DNA of 45,150 nucleotides from Thioalkalivibrio denitrificans (lineage in GTDB: Bacteria; Pseudomonadota; Gammaproteobacteria; Ectothiorhodospirales; Ectothiorhodospiraceae), in assembly GCF_002000365.1 (NCBI RefSeq), contig NZ_MVBK01000060.1, positions 35,272 through 80,421 on the forward strand, written 5' to 3'. Both the position numbers and the translations under genes were made by a program. Positions 22,726 through 38,584 of this stretch are shown here, in pieces. Each line of letters starts with the position of its first letter. The first letter of the stretch is position 1. Under the pieces are notes generated by a model. The model made no database searches and was not told where the DNA came from. It saw nothing but the letters and a program-made list of their open reading frames with translations.

Positions 22726-23510
22726 TCAGCAGAAATCCCGGGACGGCGTCATCAGCCGCCCCAGCCAGCCGCTGCGATCCACCAGCCGGCGGGCCACCAG
22801 ATGCATCACGCCCTCCACCCGCTGCAATTCGCCGCGAATCTCCAGCAATCGTCCCTGGATCACCTCCCGGCGATAGCGTTGCACCAGTGTCGGCCAGACG
22901 ATGGCGTTTACGGTGCCGGTCTCGTCTTCCAGGGTGAGGAACACGGTACCCCGGGCGGAGGCCGGGTGCTGGCGGGTGATGACCAGGCCGATGTGGCGCA
23001 CGTGCCGGCCGTGGGGATGTGCCAGCAGATCCTGCGCGGTGACGCCGCCCGCACGGCGCAGCCGGGTGCGCAGCAGGGCCAGGGGATGTTCGCCCAGGGT
23101 CAGGCCGGTGGCGCGGTAATCGGCCACGCAGTCCTCGCCGGGCGCGGGGGCCGTCAGCAGCGGATCGGCCTCCACCGGATCGGCGTCGGCGAGCAGGGGC
23201 AGGGGGGACTCCACGCCCAGGGCCGCCCAGCGGGCCCGGTGGCGATGCCCGGTAAGCGTCTTCAGGGCACCGGCCTCCGCCAGAGCATCCAGTTGCCGGG
23301 TGTCCAGCGTCGCACGCCGGGCCAGATCATCCACGCTTCGGAAGGGGCGTTCTTGCCGGGCGGCGACAATGCGCTGTGCCGGCGCCTCGCCCAGGCCCTG
23401 GACCAGGCGCAGACCGAGACGCAGGGCGGGGGACCTTTGGGTTTTCTGCCACGCCTGGCCCCCTCCCCGGCCCTCCACGGGGGAGGGCCGGGGAGGGGGC
23501 CGCGGCAGGT
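22726..23510 (-). pseudogene. dnaE2: 3' part of dnaE2 in the shifted frame (HhH and OB-fold region)
   Basis: This is the stretch read in the second frame. It contains [20 protein letters not shown] (helix-hairpin-helix type), the GLTLGEHPLALLRTRL linker that is conserved in DnaE2, and the OB-fold IGLVITRQHPASARGTVFLT with TLEDETGTVNAIVW. The end PSRDFC matches the family terminus. No ribosome binding site is evident for separate translation. The OB domain contacts single-stranded template, so loss would probably weaken lesion bypass. Confidence 0.8.
23460..23505. repeat. CCCTCCCCGGCCCTCC palindrome inside dnaE2
   Basis: CCCCCTCCCCGGCCCTCC and GGGAGGGCCGGGGAGGGGG pair around a very short loop. 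It equals the inner hairpin of the composite repeat seen at 5215, 30140, 36580 and 37528. The dnaE2 frame changes across it. Confidence 0.8.
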
Positions 23511-24557
23511 GAATTGACCACCAGCGTGCAGTCCCGGTCGCTCTCGCACACATCCACCGGCAGCACGGTCACCCCGTGACGCTGCGCATCCTGCACCAGT
23601 TGCGAGGGACCGTAGAATCCCATGGGCTGGCTGTTGAGCAACGCGGCGGTGAAGGCGGCCGGTTCGTGGCGCTTGAGCCAGGCGGAGACGTAGGCAATGA
23701 GCGCAAAGCTGGCGGAATGGGACTCCGGGAAGCCGTATTCGCCGAAGCCCAGGATCTGCTGGTAGATCTGCTCGGCGAAAGTCTCCGGATAGCCCCGCTC
23801 GGCCATGCCCCGGAGCAGCCGTTCCCGGAAAAGATGCAGGGTGCCCTTGCGCCGCCAGGCGCCAATGGCCCGGCGCAGGCCGTCCGCCTCACCGGCGGAA
23901 AAGCCCGCTGCCACCATGGCCAGCTTGATCACCTGTTCCTGGAAGATGGGTATGCCCAGGGTGCGTTCCAGGACGCCACGCACGGCCTCGCTGGGATATT
24001 CCACCGGTTCCAGCCCCTGCCGGCGGCGCAGATAGGGATGCACCATCTGCCCCTGGATGGGGCCCGGGCGCACGATGGCGATCTCGATGACCAGGTCGTA
24101 AAAACAGCGGGGCTTGAGACGCGGCAGCATGCTCATCTGCGCCCGGGACTCGATCTGGAACACGCCCACCGTGTCGCCCCGGGCGATCATTTCGTAGGTG
24201 GCCGGATCCTCGGCGGGCACCGTGGCCATGTCCAGAGACATACCCCGGTAGCTGCGAATGAGATTGAAGGCCCGCCGCACAGCGGAGAGCATGCCGAGCG
24301 CCAGCACGTCGATCTTGAGCAGACCGAGGGCATCCAGGTCGTCCTTGTCCCACTGGATCACGGTGCGCTCGGCCATGGCGGCGTTCTCGATGGGCACCAG
24401 CTTCGAAAGCACGTCCCGGGCGATGACGAAGCCGCCCACGTGCTGGGACAGGTGCCGGGGGAAACCCACCAGTTGCTCCACCAGTGCCACCAGGCGCCTC
24501 AGCACCGGGCTGTCCGGATCCAGGCCCGCCTCGCGGATGCGCTCGGCGGCCATGCTT

Positions 24558-24737
24558 AGCCCGCATTTCTCACCACCGTTCGTAGCGAGGGCGTCGAGGT
24601 GCCGCTGTGGGGGGGTGCACGCAGTGGAAGACGGCGCAGGCGTAGCCGACACTACGTCAAGCCGGCTGGAGCGAGTACGCCCCCCCACAGCGCGCAGATC
24701 GGCGGCCGCAGTAGAAGGGTGGTGAGATATGCGGGCT
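24558..24737. repeat. 180-bp palindromic element inserted in frame in dnaE2
   Basis: Outer arms AGCCCGCATTTCTCACCACC (24558-24577) and its reverse complement (24718-24737, one mismatch) enclose a second, perfect 13-bp pair CGCTGTGGGGGGG/CCCCCCCACAGCG (24603-24615 and 24680-24692). The total is 180 bp, exactly 60 codons, with no stop in the dnaE2 frame. It adds low-complexity sequence between LAWWEIARI and [15 protein letters not shown], which are normally close together in the family. Confidence 0.85.
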
Positions 24738-25633
24738 ATTTCCCACCAGGCGAGGTTTCCCGAGAGCCTCGTCACCTGATCCACAGACAGCCCCAGGGCC
24801 TTGCCCACGTCGCGGATGGCGCTGCGTCGGCGGTAGGTGATGAGTGTCGCGGCCAGTGCGGCCCGGTGGCGGCCGTATTTTTCATAGATGTACTGCATCA
24901 CCTCCTCACGCCGCTCGTGTTCGAAATCCACGTCGATGTCCGGCGGCTCGTTGCGTTCCTTCGAGACGAAGCGCTCGAACAGCATCTCCGAGCGGGCGGG
25001 ATCCACGGCGGTGATGCCGAGGCAATAGCACACGGCGGAATTGGCGGCGGAACCGCGGCCCTGGCAGAGGATCCCCCGGCCGCGGGCGAAGCGCACGATG
25101 TCGTACACAGTCAGGAAGTAAGGGGCGTAGTCCATCTCGCCGATGATGGCCAGTTCATGGGCCACCAGCTCCCGGATCTTCTGCGGCGCGCCGTTCGGCC
25201 AGCGCGCGGCCATGCCCTCGCGGGTGAGGCGTTCCAGATATGCCGTGGCCGACTCCCCGGGCGGCACGTCGTCCACCGGGTAGGTGTAGCGCAGTTCGTC
25301 CAGGGAAAACCGGCAGCGTCCTGCGACGGCCGCGGACTCGGCCATCCACTCGGGCCGGTACAGCCGCGCCAGGTCCTCCCGGGGGCGCAGGTGCCGCTCG
25401 CCGTTGGCGAACAGCCGCGACCCCGCCTCGCAAAGCGGCACCCGATGGCGGATGGCAGTGAGCACGTCCTGCAGGGCGCGGCGCTCGCGCAGGTGCATGT
25501 GCACCTCGCCGCTGGCGACAAGCGGCAGGCCGGTGCGGGCCGAGAGGGACTCCAGTTCGGTTCTGCGGGCGGCATCCGTGCCGTCACGATGCAGGCTGAT
25601 GGCGATCCATGTGCGATCCGGGAAGACGGCCTT

Positions 25634-25670
25634 CAGAAAGGATGAAGGAGGAAGGATGAAGGATGAATGG
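25634..25670. repeat. GAAGGATGAAGG repeat fragment inside dnaE2
   Basis: Tandem GAAGGATGAAGG steps, related to the element at 18154-18222, add about a dozen residues ([13 protein letters not shown]) in frame in the PHP-adjacent region. Confidence 0.7.
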
Positions 25671-25860
25671 CGGGGAGGGGACCACAGGGCCAGCAGGCCG
25701 GTTGCGTGGCGGGTCAGGTTGTCGCGGGTCAGGTGATATCGGCCCTTGGCGGCGTTGCGGCGACCCGCGGTGATCAGTTGCGAGAGGTTCTCGTAGCCCT
25801 CGAGGTTTTCCGCCAGCAGCACCAGATGCAGCGCATCCTCGGCGCATCCTTCCGGCACCC

Positions 25861-25948
25861 GTAGGTTGGGGTGAGCGCAGCGAACCCCAACAGGCCCATG
25901 CGGGGTCTGCCGCGAATGTTGGGGTTCGCTGCGCTCACCCCAACCTAC
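25861..25948. repeat. Perfect 32-bp inverted repeat inside dnaE2
   Basis: GTAGGTTGGGGTGAGCGCAG (start of the left arm, 25861-25892) and its exact reverse complement (25917-25948) enclose a 24-base loop. It interrupts the PHP domain between IIGTEVRLS and [19 protein letters not shown] without breaking the frame. Confidence 0.9.
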
Positions 25949-26189
25949 GGTGGACAGGCGCACCTCGGTGCCGATGATCAGGTGCAGGCCGTGTTCCTTC
26001 GCCGCCTGGTGGGCGCGCACTGCGCCGGCCAGCGAGCACTCGTCGGTAATCGCCAGCGCCCGGTAGCCCAGCCCGGCGGCCCGTACCACCAGCTCCTCCG
26101 GGTGCGACGCCCCACGCAGGAAGCTGAAACTGGAGATACAGTGAAGCTCGGCGTAGTCGGGAGGCATGGCGGCGGGATGGACTCGAATA

Positions 26190-26205
26190 CTGTTCTTATA
26201 TACAG
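26190..26205 (-). promoter_or_regulatory. LexA (SOS) box upstream of dnaE2
   Basis: CTGT-TCTTATAT-ACAG is a perfect match to the CTGT-N8-ACAG consensus. It lies 23-38 bases upstream of the dnaE2 ATG, where it would overlap the promoter. Confidence 0.85.
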
Positions 26206-32588: not shown

Positions 32589-33212
32589 ATGCAAACCAAC
32601 GTCGGCATTCTGATCTTCGAGAATGTGGAGGTGCTGGATTTCTGCGGCCCTTACGAGGTGTTTGTCACCACGCGCCTTGACGAATCACGCAGGCGTGAAA
32701 CCGAGGCGCCCTACAAGGTGAGTCTGCTTGCCGCCACGGCGGAGCCGGTCACCTGCTCCGGCGGGATGCGGGTGCTGCCCACCCATACGCTGGCGGATGC
32801 GCCGGCCCAGGACATCCTGGTGGTACCCGGCGGCTGGGGTGTGCGGGCACTGCTGGACGATGCGCCGCTGATGGAATGGTTGCGGGAACAGGCTGGACAG
32901 GTGAAGACCCTGGCGTCGGTGTGCACGGGTTCCCTGCTGCTGGCCTCCGCCGGTCTGCTGGACGGCAGGGAGGCCACCACCCATTGGCGATCGCTGCCGC
33001 TCATGAAGGAGCGCTTTCCGCAGGTGGGCGTTCACGAGGACGTGCACGTGGTGGAAGACGGCAACATCATCAGCTCCGCGGGCATCTCCGCCGGCATGGA
33101 CCTGGCACTCAGGATCGTGGCCCGCGACCACGGCGACGAAGTCGCCGCCAACGCCGCCCGCAACATGGAATATCCGTGGCCTTCTGATAATCGGCGGCGG
33201 GTTGTTTTTTGA
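32589..33212 (+). CDS. DJ-1/PfpI family protein (class I glutamine amidotransferase-like)
   Basis: A 207-residue protein with the DJ-1/PfpI fold. It begins QTNVGILIFENVEVLDFCGP, typical of the AraC-type sensor and isonitrile hydratase branch. The nucleophile elbow is LASVCTGSLLLASAGLL with C112, and H132 in TTHWRSLPLM is the usual partner. The C-terminus keeps SAGISAGMDLALRIV. There is no DNA-binding domain. Likely activities are isonitrile hydratase or a related hydrolase, but the substrate is unknown. ATG 32589 is chosen by family alignment; the Shine-Dalgarno is weak. The stop codon is at the very edge of the repeat that begins at 33210. Confidence 0.88.
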   Translation: MQTNVGILIFENVEVLDFCGPYEVFVTTRLDESRRRETEAPYKVSLLAATAEPVTCSGGMRVLPTHTLADAPAQDILVVPGGWGVRALLDDAPLMEWLREQAGQVKTLASVCTGSLLLASAGLLDGREATTHWRSLPLMKERFPQVGVHEDVHVVEDGNIISSAGISAGMDLALRIVARDHGDEVAANAARNMEYPWPSDNRRRVVF

Positions 33213-33447
33213 AGGTCAAAAGCTTTGACGCAGAGGCGCAAAGACGCAAAGGAACGCAAAGAAAATTCTTGAGCTATTGCTGTTAAGCCCCTTCCAACCG
33301 TGTTGCAAAGTTCAGGTGTCATGGCCTGAATAGGCCCCAATGCTTTCATCTCGCAAAGAACGCGAAGATCGCAGAGAAAACAGAAGAACAAAACGAATTT
33401 CTTTGCGTTCCTTTGCGTCTTTGCGCCTTCGCGTTGAAATTTTTTCA
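33210..33447. repeat. Long palindromic repeat flanking imuB, left copy
   Basis: An element of about 238 bp beginning TGAAGGTCAAAAGCTTTGAC at the stop of the DJ-1/PfpI gene. It has tandem ACGCAAAG-type steps at both ends in opposite orientation and a non-repetitive centre (TTGCAAAGTTCAGGTGTCAT and neighbours). The copy at 35007-35242 is about 90% identical by eye in the opposite orientation. Confidence 0.9.
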
Positions 33448-33453
33448 GTAGGG

Positions 33454-34986
33454 CTACCCGAACACCCCGCACAAGCGAACCGAGTCTGTGCCGTGTTCGC
33501 GGTAGAGCCACCAGCGTACGCCGTGGCGGTCTTCGGCGGTGTAGTAGTCACGGCGTTCTCCGCCGCCGTCCCACCAGCCGGTTTCGATGCGTTCCGGGCC
33601 GTGCACACGGCGAAGGGAAGGCGGGCAGGGCAGGGAATGTTCAAGCAGCCACAGGGGCCGCGGACCATATCCGGGGGGAGCAATACTCACCGATGCTGAA
33701 TCGGCCGGGTCCGTACGCGCCCAGGCCCGGGCGGGGCGGTGATCGTCGCGCAGGGCGAGACCGAACACCGCATCCCGGCCCAGCCGGGCGCGCAGGCGGT
33801 CCAGCAGGGACTGCCGGGCATCCGCCTGCGCTTCGACATCCGGCAGCAGGGCGGTATCCCGGTGGGGCAGGGGCAGGAAGGCGCCGGCTTGCAGTTCCAG
33901 ACCCGTCACGTCCGCATCGAGGCACTGCCGGGACAGGCGTTCCATGCACAGCGCCAGCAGATGATCCGGGTCGCGTCCGGGGGCCGCGAGGCCCAGGTTC
34001 ACGTGCGTGGCCGGACGCCGGGCGTGGAGCAGTCGAAGGTCCAGGGACTGTACCGCCATGCCGCGTCCGCGCAGCACGCCCGCCAGTTCACGCAGCAGGC
34101 GCTGCAGGGGTGTGCGCAGCATGGCCTGGTCGTGCGTCTCCACGGGCAGCCACAGCCGGCGCTCGAAAGAGGGCGGCGGTTCGAAGCGCGGCCGCGGATC
34201 CGGCAGGTATCCCGTGAGGCGATCCAGGTAAGCCGGCAGCCACGCACCCAGGCGCCGGGCCAGCCCGTCCCGCGGCAGACGCCACAGGGCGCCGAGGGTG
34301 TTCACGCCCATGCCGCGCAGGCGCTGCACCACGGCCTCGGGCCACTCCAGCGCCTCCACCGGCAGTTCCCGGATCAGGGCAGCCAGGGTGTCCGTATCCC
34401 GGGCCGGTTCGGCAATGCCGGAGCGGGCCAGCAGGCGGGCCCCGAGGGGCGTGACTGCAAGCCCCGTACGGGCGTGATGGTCCAGTGTTTCGAGATCGGC
34501 GAGGATGCGCCGGCGCAGACGCTTCATGCCGCCGAACAGCCGCAGGCTGCGGCCCACCTCCAGCAGCAGCACGTGACCTTCCTCCACCGCCACGTGGTCC
34601 GTGTACTGCAACCCCCAAGCGGCGAGGGTATGCAAAGCGGCGTGCTCGGCCGCCGTGTCCCGCTGACGCACGCGCAGTTCCGCGCACAGCCCCAGTGCAT
34701 CGCCCAGAGGCGTACCGGGGCGGATGCCCGAACCCCGCGCTCCCCGGCTGGCCGCATGCACCAGTTGACGGCCGCGCACCGTCTGGCACACCACCAGCGG
34801 CATGGGTGCCGCATCCTCCTGCGCGATCATTTCCAGAGCCAGATGGGGAAAGTACAGCGCCAGCCACAGGCTGCCGGGCCGGTTTCGCGCGCGGGGCAAA
34901 GGCGTATCGGCCGGTACAGCAACTCGCACCGGCGCCGGATCGAGCCCCGGCAGGCTGTGCTGTCTTGTTCGCGCAAGCGGTTTCAT
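33454..34986 (-). CDS. imuB: ImuB, DNA polymerase Y family mutasome protein
   Basis: A 510-residue Y-family-like protein. After a 38-residue N-terminal extension, the family core starts at SLWLALYFPHLALEMIAQED. Other features are GLQYTDHVAVEEGHVLLLEV, LRGMGVNTLGALWRLPRDGL (helix-hairpin-helix) and the C-terminal RRDYYTAEDRHGVRWWLYRE that marks ImuB. ImuB is a non-catalytic adaptor that links DnaE2, ImuA and the beta clamp in translesion synthesis. A Q-x-x-LF-type clamp motif is not clear in the linker (HRDTALLPD), but RQHSLPGLDP near the N-terminus resembles one. No Shine-Dalgarno is seen at the ATG; a repeat lies directly upstream, so the original start may have been altered. Confidence 0.9.
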   Translation of the reverse strand: MKPLARTRQHSLPGLDPAPVRVAVPADTPLPRARNRPGSLWLALYFPHLALEMIAQEDAAPMPLVVCQTVRGRQLVHAASRGARGSGIRPGTPLGDALGLCAELRVRQRDTAAEHAALHTLAAWGLQYTDHVAVEEGHVLLLEVGRSLRLFGGMKRLRRRILADLETLDHHARTGLAVTPLGARLLARSGIAEPARDTDTLAALIRELPVEALEWPEAVVQRLRGMGVNTLGALWRLPRDGLARRLGAWLPAYLDRLTGYLPDPRPRFEPPPSFERRLWLPVETHDQAMLRTPLQRLLRELAGVLRGRGMAVQSLDLRLLHARRPATHVNLGLAAPGRDPDHLLALCMERLSRQCLDADVTGLELQAGAFLPLPHRDTALLPDVEAQADARQSLLDRLRARLGRDAVFGLALRDDHRPARAWARTDPADSASVSIAPPGYGPRPLWLLEHSLPCPPSLRRVHGPERIETGWWDGGGERRDYYTAEDRHGVRWWLYREHGTDSVRLCGVFG

Positions 34987-35006
34987 GGGGTGTTTGGGTG
35001 AAACTC

Positions 35007-35242
35007 AGAAAACCTCGACGCAGAGGCGCAAAGACGCAAAGGAACGCAAAGCAATTCGTTTTGTTCTCCTGTTTTCTCTGCGATCTTCGCGTTCTCTGCG
35101 AGATGAAAGCATTGGGGCCTGTCAGGCCATGACACCTGAACTTTGCAACATGGTTGGAAGAGACTTAATAACAAATAGCTCATGAATCTTCTTTGCGTTC
35201 CTTTGCGTCTTCGCGTCTTTGCGTCAAAGCTTTTGACTTTCA
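35007..35242. repeat. Long palindromic repeat flanking imuB, right copy
   Basis: Inverted copy of the element at 33210-33447. It occupies almost the whole gap between imuA and imuB. Its outer edge TGAAAGTCAAAAGCTTTGAC begins with the imuA stop codon, as the left copy begins with the stop of the DJ-1/PfpI gene. Confidence 0.9.
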
Positions 35243-35905
35243 TTTGCCGACCCCGCCCACAACCCGCGGCACCACAACCACCGAACCCCCCCAGCCGCGG
35301 CGGCGCTTGAGGATGCGGATATTCAGCCCGGCATCCGCCGGTGAGAGCAGCAGGCGCACCGTGGCCGGGGAGGCATGAGCAGCCTGGCGGGTCTCCCGGT
35401 AGAGGAAGCCGGTGGCGCGGCCTCGTTCCGCGGCCAGTTGCAGGCGGCGCAGGGCGCGGGTGTCCGCCCGGCCCGGCCAGGCCAGGGCCACGCCGCAGGC
35501 GCCGCTGCCGAGTGCCTGTTCCAGGGCCCACAGGGTTTCGGCATCGTCCTGCGTGGTGATCACCAGCACCCGCTCCAGACACACCCCGGCCTGTGCCAGG
35601 GCGGGGGCATAGGGAATGTGGGGCGGGGCGACGAAGGCGATGTGACAGCCCGCGTCCGTCTGTGCCGCCAGCAACGGCAACAACAGGGTGACTTCGCCGA
35701 TACCGTGCAGGTCGGTGAGCAGTTCCACCAGAACGCCCCGGGGCCAGCCGCCGCCCAGGGCGTCATCCAGGGCGGCATGGCCCGTGGGCAGAGCGTCGCC
35801 ACCCGGGAGTGGCGTGCCGCCACGCCAGATATCGCGGCGCCGGAGCAGGATGTCCAGGGACGCGTCGCCGCCGGTCGCATCCCGGGTGTCGGTATCCGCT
35901 TCCAT
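35240..35905 (-). CDS. imuA: ImuA, translesion synthesis-associated RecA-like protein
   Basis: A 221-residue ImuA-type protein (SulA/RecA-like). Family stretches are LPTGHAALDDALGGGWPRGV (the region that takes the place of the RecA ATP site), PLLAAQTDAGCHIAFVAPPH and LLSPADAGLNIRILKRRRGW near the end. It binds RecA and ImuB and is needed for the ImuB-DnaE2 mutasome. It starts six bases after the lexA stop, so lexA and imuA are cotranscribed under the SOS box. Normally imuA and imuB nearly overlap; here a palindromic repeat of about 236 bp separates them, and the imuA stop is the first codon of that element. Confidence 0.9.
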   Translation of the reverse strand: MEADTDTRDATGGDASLDILLRRRDIWRGGTPLPGGDALPTGHAALDDALGGGWPRGVLVELLTDLHGIGEVTLLLPLLAAQTDAGCHIAFVAPPHIPYAPALAQAGVCLERVLVITTQDDAETLWALEQALGSGACGVALAWPGRADTRALRRLQLAAERGRATGFLYRETRQAAHASPATVRLLLSPADAGLNIRILKRRRGWGGSVVVVPRVVGGVGK

Positions 35906-35911
35906 GACGGC

Positions 35912-36511
35912 TTATTTCGGGCGGTTGCGAATCACGCCCACGCCGATGCCTTCGATCACCAGCGGCTCGTGGCGCAGGTCCACGGTGATGGGTTCGAACT
36001 CCGGGTTTTCCGGCAGCAGGGTCACCCGGTTGCCCCGGCGGCGGAAGCGCTTCACCGTCACTTCGTCCTCGAGGCGCGCCACCACGATCTGGCCGTTGCG
36101 CACCTCGGGCGTGCGGTGCACCGCCAGCAGGTCTCCGTCCAGGATGCCCGCGTCCTTCATGCTCATGCCTCGCACCCGCAGCAGGTAGTCCGGCGCCGGG
36201 GTGAACAGGCGCGGGTCGATACTGTAATGATCCTCGATGTGCTGCTCCGCCAGGATGGGTTGCCCCGCCGCCACCCGCCCCACCAGGGGCAGACCGCCGC
36301 CGTCGCGCAGCCGGATGCCCCGGGAAGCACCCGAACGCAGTTCGATCGCCCCCTTGCGTGCCAGGGCCTGAAGATGGGCCTGGGCGGCATTGGGGGAGCG
36401 AAACCCGAAGGCCCGCATGATCTCCTCCCGGGTAGGCGGCATGCCGCTCTCGCCCAGGGTGTCGCGGATGAATTGCAGAATCTCGGCCTGTCGGGGGGTG
36501 AGGGGGTCCAT
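35912..36511 (-). CDS. lexA: LexA, SOS repressor
   Basis: A 199-residue LexA. The winged helix DNA-binding domain (residues 1-70) has [40 protein letters not shown] and [20 protein letters not shown]. The self-cleavage site is A82-G83 in [16 protein letters not shown]. The catalytic Ser-Lys pair is S117 in [14 protein letters not shown] and K154 in EDEVTVKRF. It represses the SOS regulon until RecA filaments trigger its cleavage. It is autoregulated by the box at 36532-36547 and heads the imuA-imuB operon. A second LexA elsewhere in the genome is possible, since such cassettes often carry an extra repressor. Confidence 0.94.
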
Positions 36512-36531: not shown

Positions 36532-36547
36532 CTGTATTTAATTACAG
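36532..36547 (-). promoter_or_regulatory. LexA (SOS) box upstream of lexA-imuA-imuB
   Basis: CTGT-ATTTAATT-ACAG is a perfect CTGT-N8-ACAG box, 21-36 bases upstream of the lexA start codon and in an AT-rich promoter region. Confidence 0.9.
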
Positions 36548-36579
36548 TAGTCGGGATTCGGGGGGAAGGCAAGGATGAA

Positions 36580-36770
36580 GTTCGAAGTGGGAATTGGGAA
36601 GTGCGAACGAAAACCACCCTCACCCCGGCCCTCTCCCTGAGGGCGAGGGAGTGAAGACCCCCTCCCCCGCATCGCGGGGGAGGGCTGGGGAGGGGGCCTT
36701 CCCACTTCCCAATTCCCAATTCACACTTCCTACTTCATTCCCCCTTCCCAATTCTCACTTCGTACTTTCA
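36580..36770. repeat. Composite GGGAAGTGGGAA palindrome, copy 3
   Basis: Opposite orientation to copy 4. The arms GTGGGAATTGGGAAGTGCGA and TTCCCACTTCCCAATTCCCA enclose the hairpins CCCTCTCCCTGAGGGCGAGGG and CCCCCTCCCCCGC/GCGGGGGAGGG. The right side adds a second partial terminus that reaches the stop codon of the DUF4197 gene at 36755. Confidence 0.85.
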
Positions 36771-37489
36771 AAAACCTTCCTCAGCAGTTCGGTGGTGCGC
36801 TTCGCCGGATCCCGGCGGATGGCGGCTTCCTCGATGGCCAGGTAGTGGAACACACCGTCCAGGGCACGGCTGACGACGTGGCCCGTGAGGTCGCTCTCGA
36901 TCTCCGGCAGAAAGGGGATGCTGTGGTAGCGGCGCAGCAGATCGTCGTGGACCCGGACCGCGCCGGCTTCGGACAGGGTGTCGTCCACGATGGGGCGCAT
37001 CTCGGCAGCCAGCGGTGTCGACATGCGCGACTGGAAATAGCGAGTGGCGGCATCGTCGGGGCCGCGCAGGATGCCCTCGGCATCCTCCAGGGTCATGTCC
37101 CGGATGGCGTCCAGGAACAGCGCCTTCGCCCGGGGCGCCGCCGCCTCGGCGGCCCGGTTCATGCGCACTTCCAGGTCATCCAGCATGCCGCTCATGCCCA
37201 CCCGTGCCAGGGTGTCGCGCACCCGTTCTAGATCCCGGGGCAGCGGTATGCGGATGGCCGGATCCGCGAGAAATCCGTCCGTCCGCCCCACCTGGCTCAC
37301 CACGTTGTCGGTGCCGACGCGAAGCGCCTCACGCAACCCGTCGGCGATCTCGGCACGGGTCAGCGATGAGGCGGTACGACCCCCTGTCAGGTCCCGCAAC
37401 AGTTCCTGCCCCCGCTGCCACCAGTTGCCCTGGGCCTGTGTGGGGACCAGCAGGGCGAACGAAAGGATGAGCATCTGGCGTCGGTTCAT
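36755..37489 (-). CDS. DUF4197 domain-containing secreted protein
   Basis: A 244-residue protein of the DUF4197 family. The signal peptide is MNRRQMLILSFALLVPTQAQ (start at 37489; the ATG at 37498 is a possible alternative). The mature domain starts LRDLTGGRTASSLTRAEIAD and carries GLREALRVGTDNVVSQVGRT, DDLEVRMNRAAEAAAPRAKA and ending segments LDGVFHYLAIEEAAIRRDPA. It is helical and probably periplasmic; its function is unknown. The preceding in-frame sequence is read from a repeat and is not part of the protein. The stop codon lies at the terminus of the next repeat (AAGTGAGAATTGGGAAG). Confidence 0.88.
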   Translation of the reverse strand: MNRRQMLILSFALLVPTQAQGNWWQRGQELLRDLTGGRTASSLTRAEIADGLREALRVGTDNVVSQVGRTDGFLADPAIRIPLPRDLERVRDTLARVGMSGMLDDLEVRMNRAAEAAAPRAKALFLDAIRDMTLEDAEGILRGPDDAATRYFQSRMSTPLAAEMRPIVDDTLSEAGAVRVHDDLLRRYHSIPFLPEIESDLTGHVVSRALDGVFHYLAIEEAAIRRDPAKRTTELLRKVFESTK

Positions 37490-37527: not shown

Positions 37528-37682
37528 TGAGAAGTAAGAAGTGTGAATTGGGAAGTGGGAAGGCCCCCTCCCCAACCCTCCCCCGCGATGCGGGGGAGGG
37601 GGTCTTCACTCCCTCGCCCTCAGGGAGAGGGCCGGGGTGAGGGTGGTTTTATTCCCACTTCCCAATTCACACTTCCTACTTC
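37528..37682. repeat. Composite GGGAAGTGGGAA palindrome, copy 4
   Basis: The cleanest copy. The arm AAGAAGTGTGAATTGGGAAG pairs with CTTCCCAATTCACACTTCCT on the right. Inside are CCCCCTCCCC, CCCTCCCCCGC/GCGGGGGAGGG and GCCCTCAGGGAGAGGGC. It lies between DUF4197 and lysR, and its right end supplies the lysR stop. Confidence 0.9.
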
Positions 37683-38584
37683 ATGTCCCCCTTCCAATAC
37701 GGCGGATCCCCGAAGCTCGCTGCCAGGTGATCCACCAGGGCCCGAACCTTGGCGGGCAGGTGGCGGTTCTGGGGGAACACCGCGTACACGGCGGACTCGG
37801 GAAGCTCGGCGTCCAGCCTGACCACCTGCAGATGTCCGTCCTCGAGCGCCTGCCACACGATGAAGTCCGGGATCACGGCGATCCCCAGGCCGGCGATGGC
37901 GGCGTCGCGCATGGCATCACCGTTGTTCACGCGCATGGCCACGTTGAAATGACCGGTCACCCAGCCGCCGTCACGCCTGAAACGCAGCTGGTCGTTGGGA
38001 TGGACATTGGAGTAGAGAATGCCCCGGTGCCGTGACAGGTCCTCAACATGTGCCGGAAGTCCGTGGGCCCGGGCATATTCGGGGCTCGCCACCAGTACGT
38101 TGCGGGTCGAGACAAGACGCCGGGCCACCAGCGTGGAATCCGGCAACTGCCCGATGCGAATTGCCATGTCATAGCCTTCGCCCACCAGGTCTACCATGCG
38201 GTCATTCAGGTCCAGATCCAGCCGGATGCCCGGGTGTTCCCTGAGGAACGGGAAGAGTGCGGGCCCCAGGTGCAGCAGGCCGAAACTCATGGGGGCGGCC
38301 ACCCGCAACGGTCCCCGGAGTTCGTGGCCTTCCTCGGCGAGCAGCGAGACCGCTTCGTCCAGTTCCCCGAGCATGCGTGCGCAGAAGCGGTGAAAGGTCT
38401 GGCCCTGTTCGGTGAGCGACAGGCGCCTTGACGAGCGCTGCATCAGGCGTGCGCCGACCGCGTCCTCCAGCTCCGAGAGCCTGTGGCTGACCACCGACTT
38501 GGCCACACCCAGGCGGCGCGCGGCGGCTGTGATGGAGCCGGCCTCCACGATGGCGACGAAGGTTCGTATGCCTTCCAGTTTCAT
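37676..38584 (-). CDS. LysR family transcriptional regulator
   Basis: A 302-residue LysR protein. The N-terminal winged helix-turn-helix has FVAIVEAGSITAAARRLGVA and KSVVSHRLSELEDAVGARLM, and the effector domain has GPLRVAAPMSFGLLHLGPAL, ILYSNVHPNDQLRFRRDGGW and GLGIAVIPDFIVWQALEDGH. It is divergent from wrbA with a 113-base spacer, so it probably regulates wrbA and itself in response to quinone or redox stress; this is inference from arrangement. The last codons (MK-stop) are directly at or in the repeat terminus ATGAAGTAGGAAGTGTGAAT. Confidence 0.92.
   Translation of the reverse strand: MKLEGIRTFVAIVEAGSITAAARRLGVAKSVVSHRLSELEDAVGARLMQRSSRRLSLTEQGQTFHRFCARMLGELDEAVSLLAEEGHELRGPLRVAAPMSFGLLHLGPALFPFLREHPGIRLDLDLNDRMVDLVGEGYDMAIRIGQLPDSTLVARRLVSTRNVLVASPEYARAHGLPAHVEDLSRHRGILYSNVHPNDQLRFRRDGGWVTGHFNVAMRVNNGDAMRDAAIAGLGIAVIPDFIVWQALEDGHLQVVRLDAELPESAVYAVFPQNRHLPAKVRALVDHLAASFGDPPYWKGDMK

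Follow-up and report, generated by a model that had tools for sequence, protein, structure and literature searches.

The imuB gene of Thioalkalivibrio denitrificans lies between two inverted copies of an intergenic element, which raises the question of whether this pair acts as a switch that flips or moves an error-prone polymerase gene, or records an earlier rearrangement. The window, meaning the whole 45,150-nucleotide stretch of DNA that was analysed, holds imuB (33454..34986, minus strand; 510 aa, Y-family polymerase-like, Pfam IMS 4.5e-9) downstream of the RecA-like gene imuA (35240..35905, minus strand), whose Pfam RecA match (2.2e-5) is below the curated cut-off and which occupies the same place in two congeners, and of lexA (35912..36511, minus strand; Pfam LexA_DNA_bind and Peptidase_S24). 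A LexA box, CTGTATTTAATTACAG, is located upstream of lexA at 36532..36547 and none was found near imuB. On the other side, a DJ-1/PfpI gene (32589..33212, plus strand) is convergent with imuB. The genes for an ImuA-ImuB-DnaE2 mutasome, imuA, imuB and dnaE2 (imuC; 23327..26167, minus strand, Pfam DNA_pol3_alpha), are all present and SOS-boxed. The order lexA-imuA-imuB and an SOS-boxed dnaE2 in the same region resemble described mutasome cassettes (e.g. PMC10421592, PMC3901139), but here dnaE2 is separate from imuB, some 7 kb off, with a LexA box of its own (26190-26205) apart from that of lexA, and the imuA-imuB gap measures 253 nt.

A sequence-only reading of this DNA had described two inverted copies of a 235-bp element, about 90% alike, that enclose only imuB and split the imuA-imuB operon. 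All of this was borne out except the extent, as the homology is longer, about 260 bp, and enters the last 13 bp of imuB. Two 240-bp copies, 90% identical, lie at 33210-33449 and 35003-35242, with imuB as the sole gene between them and the second copy separating imuB from imuA, which breaks up the lexA-imuA-imuB run. The pair aligns in three blocks (33332-33449/35003-35120, 92%; 33277-33329/35122-35174, 91%; 33210-33278/35174-35242, 91%), or as a single alignment of 260 bp at 88% identity scoring 321 bits; 50 dinucleotide shuffles of the region reached at most 44.6 bits. The homology runs 13 bp into the imuB 3' end (33456-33468 against 34987-34999, 12/13 identical). Counted in full, copy 1 (33210..33468, minus strand), a palindromic CGCAAAG-arm element, fills the imuB/DJ-1 spacer from the DJ-1 stop codon, its outer edge, to 13 bp inside imuB, while copy 2 (34987..35242, plus strand) occupies the interval between the stop codon of imuA and the ATG of imuB, which its first base adjoins once the overrun is included. 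Each copy is a palindrome by itself, with arms of 43-47 bp, built from CGCRRAG units, on either side of a ~135-bp centre. In a genome-wide search copy 2 matched at 90% over all 240 bases and the next-best match covered only ~55 bases; the centre occurs in these two copies alone, other genomic matches being confined to the arms. The copies differ by 23 substitutions over 252 aligned positions (9.1%), plus indels, and share identical runs of 29, 28, 27, 24 and 23 bp. This divergence bears on the suspicion that the pair is an assembly artefact: the genome is a draft of 167 contigs with no reads to consult, but copies that differ at 23 aligned positions and by indels are not one sequence used twice, and the region sits inside an 80-kb contig with the gene order of a related species (G002), so that an artefact is extremely unlikely.

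The genus was sampled with five genomes, one per species, comprising this one (G000) and G001 to G004. In G001 and G002 the arrangement of lexA-imuA-imuB next to DJ-1 agrees with that of T. denitrificans in gene order and direction, with imuB between imuA and DJ-1 (76% and 79% identity to the imuB studied here, respectively). The proposal that the repeats mobilise imuB as a composite unit found no support, and a mobile imuB cassette was rejected, as the gene has not changed position among the three congeners in which it occurs. G003 and G004 are without imuB and each has a single DNA_pol3_alpha gene. The sequence-only reading had said that elements present in single copy at this site in relatives would speak against it, and G002 comes close to this: it carries one shortened downstream element, sharing the outer ends and a single arm with copy 1, and none of the type upstream. 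Since that shortened element shares both outer ends, the downstream imuB/DJ-1 site appears to be the older one. Meanwhile, the imuA-imuB gaps of G001 and G002 hold unrelated repeats, namely a GTAGGTTGGGG palindrome plus other repeat fragments.

The imuB gene of G002 ends GGGGTGTTCGGGTGAAATTCAGAAAAC, and the inner end of copy 2 matches there at 25/27 positions (p ~1.5e-11, fixed register). Together with the position of the other end, where copy 1 stops at the DJ-1 stop codon, this match to the G002 imuB 3' junction makes copy 2 most plausibly a reversed duplicate of the entire imuB/DJ-1 spacer, with the final 13 bp of imuB carried along; the overrun is short in this genome alone, and the strong junction match relies on one sister species. 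The pair is thus interpreted, with a probability of roughly 0.7, as a local inverted duplication of the intergenic region, an event reconstructed from present sequences, and the locus has the appearance of a scar left by a rearrangement rather than of a switch. Copy 2 would have been created by a single rearrangement during replication or break repair, through staggered breaks or a template switch to the other strand at the palindrome. The duplication appears younger than the split from G002, because the copies are 9.1% apart whereas fourfold-degenerate sites differ between the two species by 25% in imuB and 20% in lexA, an apparent age that gene conversion could have changed.

The element itself belongs to a dispersed family, here called CGCAAAG-arm, whose arm pattern has 292 matches in this genome (160 forward, 132 reverse) against 1 for the reversed pattern, and 374 in G004; across the phylum it is patchy (58/299 genomes). 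With many copies and palindromic structure, the family is a dispersed palindromic intergenic repeat of the broad kind. Its members may turn over, since two other arm elements of the window seem to be missing in G002, where the alignments are too diverged to fix their ends. For the same reason, the defined ends and target-site duplication expected of a MITE could not be read from the comparison with G002. No match to the arm sequence was found in the open literature searched, broader repeat searches returning REP papers on other families, and the window has no Rfam match. The arms are like REP/BIME and TIR repeats (PMC3733652, PMC2817692) in being high in copy number, intergenic, palindromic, patchy between genomes and near repair genes, but they consist of tandem CGCRRAG units, whereas REPs are GTAG- or CGTC-tagged hairpins of 20-40 bp, and linkage to a transposase was not found in the flanks examined. 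Eight PF01797 (Y1_Tnp) transposase genes, of the REP-associated kind, are present in this genome; no consistent association with arms was seen in their flanks or in those of the Y1_Tnp genes of three relatives, the fetched flanks being generally without arms apart from isolated short clusters in L191, L199 and L203. An identity as RAYT-mobilised REPs was therefore rejected, as the arm lacks the GTAG tag and the Y1 transposase genes examined are not consistently arm-flanked.

A dispersed family of this size, with two further elements of the window apparently missing from G002, would suit the explanation that the same mobile palindromic element inserted independently on each side of imuB. However, the full unit with its centre is found at only these two sites in the genome, the Y1 transposase genes examined are not closely flanked by arms, and the copied unit overruns the element into imuB coding sequence, which also argues against transposition of the element alone. 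Independent insertion is accordingly considered unlikely.

Whether the pair could nevertheless operate as an invertible switch, with the copies recombining to flip imuB, so that some cells of a population would have the ImuA-ImuB-DnaE2 mutasome on and others off, depends first on the repeats themselves. Their inverted geometry permits flipping, and the five identical runs of 23-29 bp reach the shortest length at which RecBCD recombination is reported in E. coli (23-27 bp; PMC5378121, PMC12074656). Recurrent recombination should, however, leave the copies nearly identical, and they are 9% diverged; with identical runs at the reported lower limit, flipping of imuB is possible but probably rare. 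Furthermore, a scan of eight genes around imuB identified no recombinase. A flipped imuB would run against the operon, and 33150-35350 yielded no promoter-like site, nor did a search of the flanks for promoters or terminators give anything above chance. The on/off flip put forward by the sequence-only reading is likewise not supported by the comparative data: imuA and imuB run in the same direction in 103/103 loci where both genes were found, those of the two imuB-bearing congeners among them, and an inverted imuB was not seen in any genome examined. The locus resembles invertible phase-variation loci in that a gene lies between inverted repeats, and departs from them in its diverged repeats, the lack of an adjacent recombinase and a single orientation in all genomes seen. 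A switch is consequently judged highly improbable, and imuB should keep the orientation it has now, with transcription from the lexA promoter under LexA control. Were imuB able to flip, the result would be a heritable, reversible setting of the mutation rate of the cell.

A more elaborate history, in which a staggered-break inversion of imuB duplicated the spacer and recombination between the copies then restored the orientation, would account for the sequence seen today, down to the 13-bp imuB 3' end beside the ATG; indeed, duplication in one step would give the same sequence as a flip that was later reversed. Inverted duplications at breakpoints are regarded as the mark of staggered-break inversions in Drosophila (PMC5080602), where, as here, a segment is bordered by sequence that was once single-copy and now has an inverted duplicate, and the nearby DUF4197 gene shows a changed orientation within a surrounding inverted pair. 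On the other hand, imuB has the same direction here as in the relatives, the inverted intermediate is not found among the 103 loci, and two events are invoked where one suffices, which makes this history improbable beside the one-step inverted duplication.

The DUF4197 gene (36755..37489, minus strand) adjoins lexA in this genome, at the far end of the operon from DJ-1, and is flanked by an inverted pair of its own, of 155 bp and 93% identity (left copy 36575..36729, plus strand; right copy 37531..37684, minus strand). These flanks belong to a different repeat family from the CGCAAAG arms, repeat family B, with ~50 matches in the genome. The imuB and DUF4197 pairs, ~1.3 kb apart, were the only local inverted pairs in a scan of 818 kb of this genome (at least 100 bp, at least 80% identity, within 6 kb). 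In G003 and G004 DUF4197 is found between DJ-1 and a LysR gene, where it points the other way and its start overlaps the DJ-1 stop; G001 and G002 do not have it. The inversion affected DUF4197 by itself or, alternatively, a larger segment. In loci fetched from outside the genus, the gene was not beside DJ-1 or LysR, giving no outgroup polarity for the inversion. The unit appears to fit the staggered-break inversion model better than imuB does. The flip hypothesis retains a low probability on account of DUF4197, whose direction is not the same in all congeners that carry it. A broader form of the hypothesis would make lexA-imuA-imuB an inversion-prone site where single genes between inverted intergenic repeats flip, imuB being one such unit and DUF4197 one already fixed between species. 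This generalisation is very unlikely, and the evidence favours a passive scar; if it were true, a sub-population would be without a working SOS mutasome. The DUF4197 case nonetheless offers a concrete place for testing repeat-linked single-gene inversion in bacteria.

As to module history, lexA-imuA-imuB (33454-36511) sits between DJ-1 and DUF4197, genes that overlap in G003 and G004, and the LexA of those two species is only 44% identical and encoded elsewhere. This suggests that the module was gained with a LexA replacement, or else lost in G003 and G004. The DUF4197-LysR gap, compared between loci L253 and L254 of congeners that are 90-96% identical there, holds unrelated repeats, a GGGAATTGGG cluster versus a GTAG palindrome.

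If the inverted duplication is the correct reading, the locus shows how an SOS operon can be broken up by dispersed palindromic repeats through inverted duplication. In the lexA-imuA-imuB message copy 2 would form a long, stable hairpin and would uncouple imuB translation from that of imuA; the gap folds at -101.5 kcal/mol (z -7.0 against shuffles). The corresponding gaps of G002 and G001 also fold far better than shuffles (z -5.1 and -5.2) with unrelated sequence, and because these two congeners have arrived at much the same condition with other repeats, the gap looks repeat-tolerant and not regulated by copy 2. The absence of a visible Shine-Dalgarno at imuB, pointed out from the sequence alone, is real but not particular to this gene: the motif is also weak or missing at lexA, imuA and dnaE2 and at the imuB genes of G001 and G002, and the idea that the duplication had removed it was rejected on these grounds.

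The dnaE2 gene carries an in-frame GTAG-type palindromic pair (25859-25950) and a GAAGGATGA repeat (25638-25670), and such in-frame repeats add peptides to the polymerase, one of them of 11 residues. At 61-401, a 94-bp stretch that carries palindromes built of CACAGAG units occurs in two direct copies (95%) 229 bp apart.
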